Virus record (IMG/VR): IMGVR_UViG_3300021142_000093
Location: 1-35,096 of that record
Source of the DNA: a virus
Strand: one strand, 5' to 3'
DNA length: 35,096 bases
The notes below the pieces were generated by a model. That model did no database searches, was not told where the DNA came from, and saw nothing but the letters and a program-made list of their open reading frames with translations. This document shows, in pieces, positions 4,306 to 30,476 of this stretch (the stretch's first letter is position 1; the number at the start of each line of letters is the position of its first letter). The translations under genes and the position numbers were made by a program.

Positions 4306-5036
4306 AGTTATTCAACGGTCATTCAGGTAGTTTTGTAGCACTTTTAGAAGACACAAAAAGAAAACGTTTGTTTGTACGTAAAGTCTTTAATGTTGGAAGA
4401 AATGTGGAAAGACTATCTGTATTGAATGAGCTTGGTTATCCTGTACCAAAAATCTATGACCACCGAAACGATGTTCTAGACATGGAATACATTCATGGAC
4501 TTGACATAAAGAACTATCTATTGTATAATAATCCGGTTGCGTTATATGAATTTATCTGTGAGTTGATTGAATCGTTTGAACAAACCGTAACTGGTTACAA
4601 AGACTATACTGAAACATACCACGAAAAACTGGAATGGTTACCAAGTGACTTTCTATTTACCAAAGATGAGTTGATTGCAGAGTTACCTAAACTCCTACCT
4701 CAATCCTTGTATCATGGTGACCTCACACTAGAGAACATTCTATATACTGATCCTGGGTTTCACCTAATTGATCCTGTGACGATTGAATATGATTCATTCG
4801 TATTCGATATGGCCAAGTTGAGACAAGATATACAATGTAAATGGTTTATTCGTAATAGTGATGTTCATTTGGACATCAAACTACAAACCTTGTTTGAATT
4901 ATTAGAACAATCTTTTCCTTCATACTTCAATGATAGTTTATTAATATTGATGTTGTTGAGGGTATTGAAACATTGTAAAAAAGATGATGATAACTACCGG
5001 TTCTTAATGAAAGAGATTGAAAGATTATGGAAATAA
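4290..5036 (+). CDS. APH/choline-kinase fold phosphotransferase
   Basis: The protein has the small-molecule kinase signature YHGDLTLENILY near residues 147-158 (catalytic Asp in HGD, then Asn) followed by FHLIDP, the metal-binding Asp of the DFG-equivalent. An ATP-site Lys in FVRKVF and the acidic MEYIHGLDIKNYL hinge are also visible. At 248 residues it is close to the minimum for aminoglycoside/choline-kinase folds. Because the next gene is a nucleotidyltransferase, I infer that it phosphorylates a sugar or alcohol that is then activated, comparable in logic to a LicA-LicC pair. The substrate is not visible. It overlaps both neighbours. Confidence 0.7.
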   Translation: MEKVVKLFNGHSGSFVALLEDTKRKRLFVRKVFNVGRNVERLSVLNELGYPVPKIYDHRNDVLDMEYIHGLDIKNYLLYNNPVALYEFICELIESFEQTVTGYKDYTETYHEKLEWLPSDFLFTKDELIAELPKLLPQSLYHGDLTLENILYTDPGFHLIDPVTIEYDSFVFDMAKLRQDIQCKWFIRNSDVHLDIKLQTLFELLEQSFPSYFNDSLLILMLLRVLKHCKKDDDNYRFLMKEIERLWK

Positions 5037-6049
5037 TTGTACCAGCAGCTGGTCTGTCTACCAGATTTCCCGACATGAAACCAAAGTACCTTTTGTATGA
5101 TTACAAAGGTGACTTGATGTTGAAGAATGCCATTCAACCATTTTTGGGTAAATATGTAATCACTATTGGCATTCTCAAAGAACATGATGACAAGTACCAA
5201 GCATCTAAGTTTATCGAACATGAGTTTGGTATGTTGGTCAATGTTGTGGTGTTGGATGAACCCACTAGAGGTCCTGCCGATACTGTGTATCAAATCTTAG
5301 CAATGGCCAATATCAATAACACATCCATTCTAATCAAAGACTGTGATAGTTTCTTTCAACATGAAGAATCTGACGGCAACTACGTTTGTATCTCTCGTAT
5401 CTCTGAACATGAAGTATTGAAGAAACTTTCATCTAAGAGTTTTACGGTTGCAAATGAACATGATATTATTACCGATATTATAGAGAAACAAGTTGTATCA
5501 GATACATTCTGTGTTGGTGGTTACAAGTTTGCTTCTGTTGAACAATACATTCAAGCATTCAAAGCTTTGAAAACTGACCGTGAAGTGTTTGTGTCTGACG
5601 TTATCAATATGATGCTGGGTTGGGGTGAAATCTTCGTTAACAAATCTGTGACAGATTATATTGATGTTGGTACCGCATCGGATTGGTTTGAATACAACGA
5701 CAAGCCAGTTATCTTCTGTGATATTGATGGTACAATCGTTAAGGCTCAATCACGTTTGGATTTGGAAACACGTAAACCATACGAACCACTACAGAACAAT
5801 GTCAACAGACTTTTGGAGTTACAAGAGAAAGGTTCACAAATCATTTTTGTTACAGCAAGAGAATCTGAATATCGTCCAGCAACAAGAGAAATGTTGTATG
5901 AGTTAGGTTTCAAGAGTTTTAGTTATATTGATGGTCTACAAACAACAAGTCGTATTCTAATCAATGACTACAACAATGCAAATCCACACCCACGGGCAAT
6001 AGCTATAAATATCAAACGTGACAGTGATAACTTACAGGATTTTCTATGA
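5027..6049 (+). CDS. Nucleotidyltransferase-HAD phosphatase fusion
   Basis: This 340-residue protein has two domains. Residues 1-225 are a sugar-nucleotidyltransferase fold: VPAAGLSTRFPDMKPKYLL is the G-x-S/T-R-F...KPK nucleotide loop, GPADTVYQIL is the base-binding segment, and KDCDSFF carries the metal Asp. Residues from about 232 form a HAD domain: FCDIDGTIV is motif I with both Asp, FVTARESE is motif II, and LINDYNNANPHPRA fits the acidic motif region. Such fusions are known in capsule-type gene clusters. It probably activates the product of the upstream kinase while the HAD half removes a phosphate. The start overlaps the previous gene by 10 bases. Confidence 0.75.
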   Translation: MEIIVPAAGLSTRFPDMKPKYLLYDYKGDLMLKNAIQPFLGKYVITIGILKEHDDKYQASKFIEHEFGMLVNVVVLDEPTRGPADTVYQILAMANINNTSILIKDCDSFFQHEESDGNYVCISRISEHEVLKKLSSKSFTVANEHDIITDIIEKQVVSDTFCVGGYKFASVEQYIQAFKALKTDREVFVSDVINMMLGWGEIFVNKSVTDYIDVGTASDWFEYNDKPVIFCDIDGTIVKAQSRLDLETRKPYEPLQNNVNRLLELQEKGSQIIFVTARESEYRPATREMLYELGFKSFSYIDGLQTTSRILINDYNNANPHPRAIAINIKRDSDNLQDFL

Positions 6050-25109: not shown

Positions 25110-25637
25110 ATGGATGAAAAAGAATTATTTATTAAAAATTTGTTAGATAACTATTCTGTTATCAAAGAAGAATTCATGGCTAATCGTGATGATGAGAAAT
25201 CATTTGCACTTCCAGACTTTGCAGACCCAACTGTTCACTTGGAACACTGGAGAACATATTACTTGTGGTCCAGATTCAAGACACTGAAACAGTTCCTGAA
25301 AAGATTCCCTAAGACAGCTAAAATAATTGAGAACGGACCAGGAAAGTACACTGGTGGTTTTCTTTTGCTTGCTCCACATAGCACTGTACCAACTCATACA
25401 CATTATGATTGGCCAGGTGAACACTATGTTCTTCACCTACCAATTGTTGTACCAGAAGGTGATATTGGTTTTGTTATAGATGGTAAAACTCACCGTTGGG
25501 TTGAAGGTCAATTCTTGGCATTTCATTGTAACCAACCACACGGCACATTTAATAATACCGATGGTGTAAGAGTGATATTAGGATTGATTTTTGACCCAAG
25601 TTGGAAGTCTGTCCTAGAACCCTACATGGCCACTTGA
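25110..25637 (+). CDS. Aspartyl/asparaginyl beta-hydroxylase-like 2OG/Fe(II) oxygenase
   Basis: A 175-residue double-stranded beta-helix enzyme. LLLAPHSTVPTHTHYD supplies the first iron His (His98, with Asp100 in the H-x-D position), YVLHLPIVVPEGDIGFVIDG is the core strand block of the AspH family, WVEGQFLAFHCNQPHGTFN gives the second His (His144), and GVRVIL holds Arg154 for 2-oxoglutarate. The start is ATG 25110; an upstream in-frame start would overlap the previous gene by 77 bases. Phage 2OG oxygenases are widespread, but the target (host protein, virion protein or nucleotide) is unknown. The stop lies inside a strong promoter. Confidence 0.8.
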   Translation: MDEKELFIKNLLDNYSVIKEEFMANRDDEKSFALPDFADPTVHLEHWRTYYLWSRFKTLKQFLKRFPKTAKIIENGPGKYTGGFLLLAPHSTVPTHTHYDWPGEHYVLHLPIVVPEGDIGFVIDGKTHRWVEGQFLAFHCNQPHGTFNNTDGVRVILGLIFDPSWKSVLEPYMAT

Positions 25638-25662
25638 CAAATGGTTGAATTGTTGATATAAT
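25634..25662 (+). promoter_or_regulatory. Perfect sigma70 promoter TTGACA-N17-TATAAT
   Basis: TTGACA at 25634-25639 and TATAAT at 25657-25662, spaced by 17 bases, all consensus. The -35 box overlaps the stop of the oxygenase gene. A transcript would start near 25669, 18 bases before ATG 25687, and drive RNase H, DUF6433 and the cytidylyltransferase-like gene. Confidence 0.9.
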
Positions 25663-26975: not shown

Positions 26976-27340
26976 CAAAAGATAAGATTGTTGTTACCTG
27001 CGGTGATTATGATTTATTGAATGTTGATGATTACAGATTCCTCCAGAAATGTAAAGAACGAGGTGACTGGTTAATAGTCGGCCTCAACTCTGATATGTTA
27101 GTTACACTAAAAACTGGTGATGTTAGAAACACCTATGATGACAGACAAGAATTATTGTCAGGATTAAGATGTGTTGATGAAGTACTACGATTTAATGATG
27201 CCGATGGTACTTCAATCAACCTATTAAAAGCCGTTAAACTGTTTTATCCTCAAGCAGACATAACGTATGTTTCAAAGTATGATATGCACAACATGCCAGA
27301 AACAAGAATTAGAGGAATAACTTTCGAAGTGATTAATTAA
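26972..27340 (+). CDS. Cytidylyltransferase-like protein with altered HxGH motif
   Basis: A 122-residue protein with the Rossmann layout of TagD/HldE-type cytidylyltransferases: VVTCGDYDLLNVDDYRFLQK at residues 7-26, LIVGLNSDMLV, then NTYDDRQELLSGLRCVDEVLRF, and DITYVSKYD near the end. In active members the first loop reads GxFDLLHxGH; here both histidines are replaced (LLNVDD). The R-x-E-L/ll-x-x-l-r-x-V-D-E-V block is well kept. It may be an inactive nucleotide-binding descendant. The final ETRIRG is only loosely like the usual ISSTxxR. It overlaps DUF6433 by 4 bases. Confidence 0.65.
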   Translation: MTKDKIVVTCGDYDLLNVDDYRFLQKCKERGDWLIVGLNSDMLVTLKTGDVRNTYDDRQELLSGLRCVDEVLRFNDADGTSINLLKAVKLFYPQADITYVSKYDMHNMPETRIRGITFEVIN

Positions 27341-27349
27341 GGAGTAATA

Positions 27350-27541
27350 GTGTCTAAGTTTGTTGCAAAGTTCCGTAAAGACAGGGACTACAATGATGAT
27401 TCTGATTTTTCAGAGAAACGTAAGCGTTCAGGTAAACATGATCCAACCAAAAAGTTGACAAACTACGATTACGACAGAATGATGTATGAGGATGATGGTT
27501 ATTACCAGAAATCTTCACGTAGAAAATCACGACACCCTTAA
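27350..27541 (+). CDS. Small highly charged phage protein, GTG start
   Basis: A 63-residue hydrophilic protein (SKFVAKFRKDRDYNDDSDF..., ending KSSRRKSRHP) starting at GTG 27350, which lies 5 bases after AAGGAG; no ATG fits. It is rich in Lys, Arg, Asp and Tyr. A short S-K-F/Y-V-x-K-F-R-R-D start followed by charged sequence is familiar from small T4-like phage proteins without known role. It is the last gene before a strong hairpin and promoter. Confidence 0.6.
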   Translation: MSKFVAKFRKDRDYNDDSDFSEKRKRSGKHDPTKKLTNYDYDRMMYEDDGYYQKSSRRKSRHP

Positions 27542-27565
27542 TGTTGTAAAAAAACAACAATCCGC

Positions 27566-27594
27566 TTGATTAAAACTCCTTGATGTGTTATAAT
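27566..27594 (+). promoter_or_regulatory. Extended -10 promoter embedded in a hairpin
   Basis: TTGATT (27566-27571), 17-base spacer, TATAAT (27589-27594) preceded by TGT (extended -10). The -10 lies in the loop of the 27572-27614 hairpin, so RNA starting near 27601 lacks the 5' arm of the stem. Confidence 0.8.
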
Positions 27595-27617
27595 ACACTA
27601 TATCAAGGAGTTTTTTT
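27572..27617 (+). terminator. Terminator-like hairpin that also covers the ribosome site of the next gene
   Basis: AAAACTCCTTGAT (27572-27584) and ATCAAGGAGTTTT (27602-27614) are perfect 13-bp complements, with GTGT/ACAC pairing inside the loop and a T-run to 27617. For RNA coming from upstream this is a good intrinsic terminator. Its right arm is also the AAGGAG ribosome site (27605-27610) of ATG 27618, so read-through RNA would hide that site. RNA from the internal promoter would not. Confidence 0.8.
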
Positions 27618-27953
27618 ATGTTCATTCACGCACACATCAAACCTAAACGCAAAAAAAGTAAACCTACTGCTCAGCAACGTCAGTTGGCTGCGGAGTGGAA
27701 TGACATTGTGAAGAAATACGAGCCTAAGAAGATAGTTAACACTAATGCTTCAGCTTGGACTGGCACAAAAATGTATGTCCGTGAAACACCAAAGATTCCT
27801 TCATTAAATACAGGCAATGTTGCTGCAACCAAGGCAGAACCAAAGGTCTACACCGGCACAAAAGTGCTCGGTATTGCAACAATGCACAAATCAAACGCTG
27901 TTCCTGTGTTTAATGACAAGGAAGCAGTTGAAATTTCAAGCATGAGGCGCTAA
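27618..27953 (+). CDS. Conserved small basic phage protein
   Basis: A 111-residue basic protein: KPKRKKSKPTAQQRQLAAEW at the start, then VRETPKIPSLNTGNVAATK, VYTGTKVLGIATMHKSNAVP and VFNDKEAVEISSMRR. I recall this C-terminal block (VYTGTKVIGIxTMHKSNxVPIF) from many unrelated tailed phages, always without known function. Its ribosome site is inside the hairpin described at 27572, so expression is probably controlled by which promoter is used. No membrane segment. The first residues are Lys/Arg-rich and may touch nucleic acid. Confidence 0.75.
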   Translation: MFIHAHIKPKRKKSKPTAQQRQLAAEWNDIVKKYEPKKIVNTNASAWTGTKMYVRETPKIPSLNTGNVAATKAEPKVYTGTKVLGIATMHKSNAVPVFNDKEAVEISSMRR

Positions 27954-27954
27954 A

Positions 27955-28098
27955 ATGAAACGAGATTTAAAATTTGTTGTAAAATTACAACGTCCAGTTT
28001 GTAGAACACCAATCAAACCTGTTCAAGAACATAAAAATGATGTAAAATACAAACGTAAAGAGAAACATCCTCTTAAAGGAGAGAAAATTGTCTACTGA
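27955..28098 (+). CDS. Very small basic ORF, 47 residues
   Basis: ATG 27955 starts one base after the preceding stop and runs 47 codons to TGA 28096-28098. The product (MKRDLKFVVKLQRPVCRTPI..., ending KGEKIVY) is basic and unlike any family I know. Codon choice matches its neighbours, and it fills an otherwise empty 130-base stretch between coupled genes. No clear ribosome site is seen; coupling to the upstream stop could suffice. Confidence 0.5.
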   Translation: MKRDLKFVVKLQRPVCRTPIKPVQEHKNDVKYKRKEKHPLKGEKIVY

Positions 28099-28363
28099 TA
28101 TTGAATGGAAAGAGTTAGATGACGCTACCCGTAAATGGGCAGTATCATCACAATGGGAAAATGACATGGAAAACTATGGCGGGTCGTGGGTTACAACTAT
28201 TGAAGATGCAAATGACGGCACTGGCGATGGTATTTTGACTTTTCCACCTGAATTAGTGCTTTTGAGGGGCTGGACAGAAGGCACTTTGCTAAATTTAGAA
28301 GTGCAAGAACGTGAAAACGGCAATGTTTTGATTATTACAGAGAAAACTAATGAGTCTAATTGA
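28088..28363 (+). CDS. AbrB-like small protein, TTG start
   Basis: A 91-residue protein. TTG 28088 lies 4 bases after AAAGGAG (28077-28083) and no ATG or GTG is available in frame before the conserved part. The C-terminal half, DGTGDGILTFPPELVLLRGW followed by TEGTLLNLEVQERENGNVLIITEK, follows the SpoVT/AbrB pattern (D-G-x-G-D...lP-x-E-l-l-x-x-x-G-W-x-x-G-d-x-L-x-l-x). In bacteria this fold binds DNA, often as an antitoxin; phage copies are common and uncharacterised. It overlaps the next gene by 14 bases. Confidence 0.6.
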   Translation: MSTDIEWKELDDATRKWAVSSQWENDMENYGGSWVTTIEDANDGTGDGILTFPPELVLLRGWTEGTLLNLEVQERENGNVLIITEKTNESN

Positions 28364-30476
28364 TACAAAATCGCTTTTGGCCAAGTTGATGGCTACAGAA
28401 GACCTGCATATCGTACAATCTAATGTCGATACAGCAAGTTTCAACGTTGAAACACGAGTTTTGACTGTTCCTATTTTGAACGGAAACCTTTCTCGTGATG
28501 TTTATGACTTGTTTATGGGTCACGAAGTTGGCCACGCCTTGTATACTCAAAAATGTGACTTAGAAAAATCAATTGAACTGAAGCTCAACAAAGGTATTGT
28601 TAACGTTGTTGAAGATTCCCGTATCGAACGCAAGATTAAAAACAAATATCCTGGTATCAAAGCGCCTTTTATTCGTGCTTACAATGATTTGTATGATAGA
28701 GACTTCTTTGGAACTTATCAAAAAGACTTGAGTGAGTATAATTTTATTGACCGAGTGAATCTTCACTGTAAGGTTGGCTCTATTTTGAACATCCAATTTG
28801 ATGAATTCGAAAAAGAATTGTTGAAAAAGGTCGAAACCACTGAAACTTTTGAAGATGTGTTGAGTGTTTCTAAAGAAATCCAAGATTACATGCTGAAAGA
28901 AGCAGAGGAAGAACAAAAACAAGCGAAGCAAAAAATCAAAATCAAAATTGTTGCTGTTTCTTCTGAAGAAAAAGAAGGCAATGAAGAAGAAAAACAAGAA
29001 CTTCCTGACCTTTTAGATGATGATGTTGAGATTGAGATTGAATTTGAAGACAATCGAGACAAAAAAACCAAGCCTGAACAAAAAGAAGAAGAACAAGATT
29101 CTGAAAATACACCAAAAGATGAAAATACTTCTGAACCTTCATCAGGTTTTGATGCTGATATCAATATCAAACCTGAAGATTTGGTTGCCGAAACTGATGA
29201 AAGCTTTCACAAGAAAGAAAAACAACTTTTCGACATTGATAGAAGTGCTGTATACAAGTACGGAAACATTCCTGAACTTCCGTTAGAAGATATTTACGGT
29301 TACAAAAACCTGTGGAGAGACTATATCAGTTCTAATGGTCACGTTGCCAAAAAAGAATTCAACAAATACCGTAAAGAATCAAGCAAAGTTGTTTCTTACC
29401 TTGTCAAAGAATTTGAATTGCGTAAGAATGCTGACCAACTGAAACGTGCTTCAACAGCCAAAACTGGTGATTTGAATATGTCCAAGTTGTATGCACACAC
29501 TTTGATTGAAGATATTTTCAAGAAGGTGACTGTTTTGCCTGGTGGTAAGTCACACGGTCTTGTCCTTTTCTTGGATTGGTCAGGTTCAATGACCTCACAT
29601 ATTGGTTCTACAATGAAACAATTATTGAACTTGGTATTGTTCTGTAAGAAAGTTAATATTCCTTTTGAAGTGTATTCATTTCTGGATGAATCAAACCGCA
29701 ACATTAAGCAAAATATCAAAAAAGGTGATTTGGTTGTAAATAGTTTTGCATTGGCTAATCTATTATCAAGTAAAATGTCAGCAACAGAATTCCTCTGTGC
29801 TTGCGGCGGCCTAATGTCAATTTCTGGTTTGGCTGGTTATAGAAGAACACCAACTTTCCTATCATTCAGTGGTACTCCATTGAATGAAGCTGTTATTGCA
29901 GCCATGGAAATTGTTCCAAAATTCCAAAAAGAAAATCGTTTGCAAAACGTGAACACGGTTTTTCTTACTGATGGTGAAGGTGCTGGTATTCGTGGTGTGA
30001 TGGATGAACATGGTTATGTTGATAATCGTTATACACACTTGGTGTTTCGTGATCCTAAAACTCGCCGTGAAGAAATCTATGAAAACAAACAATGGAGTCA
30101 CATGGCACAAACCAAGAAGTTGTTGAACTTATTGAGAATTAGAACAAAATCCAATGTGATTGGTTTCTATATTTGTGGTGCTACTCAAATTTCTCATTTG
30201 GCGGCAACTTATTGGCCTGAAAAAGTCAAACAAGTTGACGGTTTGGATGAAATCAAAAGTCAATTCAGAAAAGAAAGATTCTTGGTTGGTGAATCAGAAG
30301 GCTTTGATGAATATTACTTTCTACGTGCTACTGGCATGGATACGGATGATGGTGAAGAATTGCAGTTCCATGAAAATGCCACCGTTCGTGGTATGACCAC
30401 AGCGTTTACTAAGTATGCTGGCAACAAGGTATCAAGTCGTGTTGTCTTGAACCGTTTCATTAAATTAATTGTATAA
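28350..30476 (+). CDS. Large HExxH + VWA protein (CobT/peptidase-like)
   Basis: A 708-residue protein. N-terminal region: MGHEVGHALYT at 57-66 is a zinc-peptidase HExxH helix, and NVVEDSRIE at 85-93 gives a likely third acidic ligand. Residues about 190-300 are an acidic, disordered linker. C-terminal region: LFLDWSGSM (Asp409-Ser-Gly-Ser) is a MIDAS metal motif of a von Willebrand A domain, with SGTPLNEAV and FLTDGEG as later MIDAS parts. Similar proteins in T4-like phages are annotated peptidase or CobT-like, and cellular CobT works with an AAA+ partner, not seen here. It may be a chelatase-like or proteolytic assembly factor. Confidence 0.75.
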   Translation: MSLIDTKSLLAKLMATEDLHIVQSNVDTASFNVETRVLTVPILNGNLSRDVYDLFMGHEVGHALYTQKCDLEKSIELKLNKGIVNVVEDSRIERKIKNKYPGIKAPFIRAYNDLYDRDFFGTYQKDLSEYNFIDRVNLHCKVGSILNIQFDEFEKELLKKVETTETFEDVLSVSKEIQDYMLKEAEEEQKQAKQKIKIKIVAVSSEEKEGNEEEKQELPDLLDDDVEIEIEFEDNRDKKTKPEQKEEEQDSENTPKDENTSEPSSGFDADINIKPEDLVAETDESFHKKEKQLFDIDRSAVYKYGNIPELPLEDIYGYKNLWRDYISSNGHVAKKEFNKYRKESSKVVSYLVKEFELRKNADQLKRASTAKTGDLNMSKLYAHTLIEDIFKKVTVLPGGKSHGLVLFLDWSGSMTSHIGSTMKQLLNLVLFCKKVNIPFEVYSFLDESNRNIKQNIKKGDLVVNSFALANLLSSKMSATEFLCACGGLMSISGLAGYRRTPTFLSFSGTPLNEAVIAAMEIVPKFQKENRLQNVNTVFLTDGEGAGIRGVMDEHGYVDNRYTHLVFRDPKTRREEIYENKQWSHMAQTKKLLNLLRIRTKSNVIGFYICGATQISHLAATYWPEKVKQVDGLDEIKSQFRKERFLVGESEGFDEYYFLRATGMDTDDGEELQFHENATVRGMTTAFTKYAGNKVSSRVVLNRFIKLIV

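Follow-up and report, generated by a model that had tools for sequence, protein, structure and literature searches.

A sigma70-type promoter nested in a hairpin predicted to mask the Shine-Dalgarno sequence of the phrog_27048 gene in a large group of environmental phages

The window, i.e. the whole stretch of DNA analysed here, is a complete IMG/VR record of 35,096 bases and probably represents a fragment of a T4-like phage; its gene content includes ribonucleotide reductase subunits, a primase, an exonuclease, and a phrog_459 peptidase. The gene under study (27618..27953, + strand; open-reading-frame list and family match) encodes a putative phrog_27048 protein of 111 amino acids with a conserved C-terminal motif (PKVYTG...GIATMHKSNAVPVF...SMRR) that is strongly conserved in relatives; its AlphaFold2 model is of low confidence (pLDDT 64.5, pTM 0.26). 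Downstream, the genes at 27955-28098, 28088-28363 (phrog_661) and 28350-30476 (peptidase, phrog_459) were assigned from reading frames and families (27955..30476, + strand), and are probably co-transcribed with the phrog_27048 gene. Upstream, a reading frame of 63 amino acids without a family match (27350..27541, + strand; open-reading-frame list and family search) stops 30 nt before the hairpin described below, a distance at which ribosomes that finish translation there are not expected to open it. Farther upstream, the promoter scan found a sigma70-type promoter of the same direction (25634..25662, + strand; TTGACA-17-TATAAT, extended -10, 12/12 consensus) that lacks the palindromic box described below. 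No + strand terminator was found by a simple scan between this promoter and position 27540; read-through RNA is therefore expected at the hairpin, and this promoter is its likely source.

The hairpin and the promoter of the phrog_27048 gene, both on the + strand, overlap. A stem of 13 bp without mismatch is formed by AAAACTCCTTGAT (27572-27584) and ATCAAGGAGTTTT (27602-27614), and the promoter scan placed an extended -10 promoter (10/12 consensus, spacer of 17 nt) at 27566-27594. The -35 element is TTGATT (27566..27571; 4/6 matches), where most relatives have TTGACA. It is followed by the left arm of the hairpin (27572..27584), which lies within the -35/-10 spacer and carries the anti-Shine-Dalgarno (anti-SD) motif CTCCTT, as seen by direct reading, in the fold and in relatives. 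The -10 element, TATAAT (27589..27594; reading and promoter scan), has an upstream TG at 27586-27587 and forms a six-base loop closed by an inner GTGT/ACAC stem (27585-27588/27595-27598). From the position of the -10, transcription is predicted to start at 27601 (± 2), on the edge of the right arm (27602..27614), and the Shine-Dalgarno (SD) sequence AAGGAG (27605-27610) lies wholly inside this arm by both reading and folding. A T7 run (27611..27617) leads from the SD to the ATG at 27618; it is a possible terminator U-tract, and from the family comparison it is not general in relatives. On direct reading, the initial annotation was correct to the base for the 13-bp stem, the SD in its right arm, the -10 in the loop and the -35 at 27566. 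In addition, comparison with relatives identified a palindromic box, GTTGTAAAAAAACAAC (27543..27558, + strand), 7 bp upstream of the -35 and centred at about -51. No second convincing copy of the promoter-in-hairpin design was found in a search of the 35,096-base window. Several promoter-like sites without the box (TTGCCA/TTGCCT-16/17-TATACT/TATAAT/TACAAT) lie on the - strand at 33.5-34.8 kb, and small reading frames start shortly downstream of these.

The segment 27540-27650 is predicted to fold with -26.7 kcal/mol, compared with -12.3 ± 2.9 kcal/mol for shuffled sequences (z = -4.96; 0/200 shuffles). In predicted folds of RNA with a 5' end at 27566, or at the upstream points tested, the probability that AAGGAG is unpaired is 0.00; it rises to 0.84 for a 5' end at 27600-27602, in agreement with the earlier proposal that transcripts of the internal promoter have an accessible SD. 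The AUG is predicted to be mostly paired in the promoter RNA (probability unpaired, 0.10), probably through a weak contact between the U-tract and an A-tract.

For comparison across phages, loci that encode the protein were drawn from IMG/VR in sets of 36 and then 80 (partly overlapping; the best 80 per scan). After removal of duplicates there remained 49 distinct promoter regions including the window, mostly from IMG/VR, which form 31 clusters at 72% identity; the clusters are not fully independent events. Nearly all of the 49 regions carry TTGACA or a variant that departs from it at one or two positions, a spacer of 16-18 nt, TATAAT, and a start codon 18-37 nt after the -10, and the order TTGACA, spacer with left arm, TATAAT and SD arm recurs. 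The arm sequences differ among the phages, yet fit each other within each phage: the duplex of a spacer with its own 5'UTR has -10.6 kcal/mol, compared with -6.3 kcal/mol when the partners are swapped between clusters (z = -9.7; 0/20,000 permutations). The same swap test gave no signal for either of two control segments: z was +0.1 for the 17 nt that precede the -35, and -0.2 for the coding start. The match of the arms was still present with the SD core masked (z = -6.9), hence a CTCC/GGAG common to the phages does not account for all of it. Among close pairs of relatives, two-sided changes that keep a base pair numbered 17 in register and 1-6 in slid registers, with modest covariation at the level of single positions. 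This conservation in relatives is the strongest evidence against a chance arrangement. In two relatives (L009, near 5950-6001; L016, near 5030-5085) only 7 nt separate the TATAAT from the ATG, and the box is present; judged by this layout, these promoters would make nearly leaderless mRNA. Six phage records hold a relative of the phrog_27048 protein, and in the neighbourhoods examined in three of these, PhiW-14, BUCT-ZZ01 and C48C1, no such promoter with hairpin was found; there, the gene closely follows the preceding gene.

The predicted accessibility of the SD was compared in the same family. In read-through RNA, the SD is predicted to pair with the -35/spacer region at a probability above 0.5 in 24 of 30 clusters, compared with 5 of 21 in a set of other perfect promoters that have a short 5'UTR and come from 13 large relatives. 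The probability is below 0.5 in six of the 30 clusters, in some of which (L060, L098) the predicted stem lies just 5' of the SD, and masking would there be partial. Over the family, the SD of read-through RNA is free with a mean predicted probability of 0.24, which becomes 0.41 when the spacer is shuffled; in promoter RNA the mean is 0.73. The duplex between spacer and UTR has a mean z of -2.73 for the phrog_27048 gene and of -0.04 for 30 other promoters of these phages, i.e. the hairpin is not a general property of promoters within these genomes. Masking of the SD in read-through RNA is thus well supported as a general feature of the family; 31 divergent clusters have kept both the layout and arms that complement each other, with controls, which supports the initial proposal of a promoter inside a hairpin that masks the SD of upstream RNA.

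The palindrome upstream of the -35, GTTG(T/C)-N6-(A/G)CAAC, is present in about 40 of the 49 distinct regions, at a distance of 7 bp (5-8 bp in some). Its spacing is fixed and its sequence conserved, unlike those of the hairpin arms, and these properties point to the box as a putative DNA-binding site. Four clusters (L035, L038, L069, L115) keep the hairpin without the box, hence the two are separable. A function of the box as terminator was rejected, as it lies at a fixed distance from the -35 and has no T-run behind it. The composite pattern of palindrome, 7 bp, and TTGNCA-N17-TATAAT has at least 120 matches in IMG/VR, where well under one would be expected by chance on a rough guess of the size of the collection. 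Among the 79 matches listed, the gene that follows is phrog_27048 in 35 cases, a phrog_459-like peptidase in 10, and a cobS-like AAA ATPase (phrog_249) in seven; RIIA-like genes (phrog_612), tRNA-like stretches and others follow in single or few cases each. Loci of this promoter class comprise window positions 27543-27558, L154, L186, L232-L250 and L370-L449, and the peptidase gene of the class encodes a VWA-peptidase. The composite class suggests a putative activator or regulator. Since the box promoter class is common to all three genes, the phrog_27048 protein may work with the pair of cobS-like ATPase and peptidase.

We consider it likely that the site acts as a switch that depends on the origin of the transcript, with upstream RNA masking the SD and RNA from the gene's own sigma70-type promoter being translated, and that this promoter belongs to the class marked by the box. 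RNA from the upstream operon would contain both arms and fold, and the SD would be hidden and the phrog_27048 gene silent; the hairpin and T7 run in the window copy may also halt part of this RNA. The gene's own promoter, with the left arm encoded in its -35/-10 spacer, would give RNA from about 27601 without this arm, and this RNA would be translated. The promoter is probably of the GTTG(T/C)-N6-(A/G)CAAC class, and a phage or host DNA-binding protein could set its timing. The basis of this reading is the anatomy of the site, the predicted folding, the conservation and matched change of the arms, the specificity for the gene, and the box at fixed spacing; from these we infer the RNA starts, the translational silence, the timing and a protein that binds the box.

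Related arrangements are found in other genetic elements. The transposases of IS10 and IS50 are guarded from outside transcription in this manner, as RNA from their sigma70-type promoter lacks the left arm and read-through RNA is masked; these are transposon ends with low basal expression, not part of a phage developmental programme. The genes e, soc, 49 and I-TevI of T4 (also segB, and mobE of Aeh1) have a hairpin that masks the SD, with a late promoter inside or nearby (PMC3014915, PMC2988022). In the T4 e-type genes, upstream RNA folds and is silent, and transcripts of the nearby promoter begin without the left arm (PMC3014915, PMC2988022); translation of early e RNA is poor, about 100-fold below that of structure-free RNA (PMC3014915), and I-TevI, segB and mobE follow the plan of e (PMC2988022). 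When refolded, T4 e gave -14.9 kcal/mol and two TATAAATA boxes, one at -34 and one, within the hairpin loop, at -21, which bears out the analogy to e drawn in the initial annotation (PMC3014915). Common to the e/soc type and the window are the hairpin that masks the SD in upstream RNA and the lack of the left arm in own-promoter RNA, both by prediction in the window and the latter conserved in relatives. The promoters differ: T4 uses the late promoter TATAAATA, which was looked for at the site and not found, so that the window is not a member of the T4 late-promoter type, whereas the window and its relatives have TTGATT/TTGACA-17-TATAAT, a sigma70-type promoter as originally proposed. The window differs further from the e/soc type by a left arm located in the 17-nt spacer, the upstream box, an unrelated gene, and the T7 run. 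For sigG of B. subtilis, a large hairpin has been proposed that would keep RNA from the upstream spoIIG promoter untranslated and that transcripts of the sigG promoter are unable to form (PMC5942855). The hairpin is thus confined to read-through RNA, as predicted for the window from the position of the 5' end, and homology is not claimed; sigG is a bacterial gene with a sigmaF/sigmaG promoter and a hairpin of 20+ bp, whereas the window holds a phage gene. What is new here is the sigma70-type promoter with its spacer as anti-SD arm, the promoter-class box, and the large phage group.

The hairpin could instead serve mainly as intrinsic terminator of the upstream operon, with masking of the SD as a by-product of tight packing. 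The window copy shares with intrinsic terminators a stem followed by a T-run (13 bp, then T7, with four of the T paired), and the gap between SD and ATG is T-rich in the family (T fraction 0.59, compared with 0.33 in other genes), though the right arm extends into pairing with the -35 or with the A-rich left-arm end, and part of this richness can come from that. The simple terminator scan did not list the site at 27572-27614, presumably because it allows loops of 3-8 nt only. However, of the 41 family members whose SD contains GGAG, just 5 have a T-run of at least five behind it, the T7 of the window being the longest of the 41, and several relatives have GGAGATTTGTT, GAGATAATTGT or GGAGGTAAC at and after the SD; the property conserved is the pairing of the SD with the spacer. 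Unlike in common intrinsic terminators, the window stem holds the SD of the next gene and has a promoter in its loop. We therefore regard a mainly terminating function as unlikely. Of the earlier statement that stem and T-run stop or mask RNA from upstream, masking is well supported and stopping is uncertain; in the window copy, the hairpin with T7 may stop part of the upstream RNA, and termination is possible to this extent.

Improbable as well is a function of the inverted repeat as DNA, either as the operator of a repressor or as a palindrome that aids promoter opening. The repeat does enclose the -10 in nearly all relatives and its inner pairs flank the TATAAT, but arm sequences change from phage to phage, as do loops and bulges, and the outer arms follow the SD rather than a fixed motif and fit much worse when swapped. 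A role in RNA processing or stability at the 3' end of the upstream mRNA (e.g. as an RNase III site) would account for a stable stem shortly after the upstream reading frame; it is the less probable of these two. The stem takes in the SD of a gene with its own promoter, other promoters of these phages lack such a stem, and a search of 27000-28400 against 4227 Rfam families gave no match at E <= 1. A chance overlap of hairpin and promoter-like sequence, as might be met in AT-rich DNA with 64 promoter-like sites in the window for 46 expected (promoter scan), was rejected by the conservation of TTGACA/TATAAT with hairpin over 31 clusters and by the swap test.

Read as a transcript-origin switch, the site means that the trick of T4 lysozyme exists on ordinary sigma70-type promoters too, encoded in the -35/-10 spacer, and that selection has kept the design in a large environmental phage group. 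The 17-nt spacer that serves both promoter and RNA switch is a compact design that can be searched for, and unrelated phage genes are preceded by it as well: two IMG/VR scans with the pattern TTGACA...CTCC...TATAAT yielded 58 distinct promoters with their own ribosome-binding site, of which 16 reach p < 0.01 when compared with spacer shuffles and 14 have a duplex below -14 kcal/mol, the genes behind them being other than phrog_27048; these scans selected for CTCC in the spacer, and any rate taken from the 58 promoters is a biased estimate. The box at fixed distance offers a concrete starting point for asking how these T4-like phages might control the timing of some of their genes. More tentatively, and with some doubt, this whole group of T4-like phages may employ a box-dependent sigma70 promoter class, read by a putative activator, for timed transcription; the timing of phrog_27048 would then be enforced both at RNA synthesis and at translation, and the spacer hairpin may have arisen repeatedly at other phage genes. 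Strong examples of a sigma70 promoter within an anti-SD hairpin before unrelated genes were seen at L304, L505, L587, L541, L302, L343, L319, L512 and L563; the arrangement of L319 ends in GGAGAGGTTTTTTTATG, as does that of the window.
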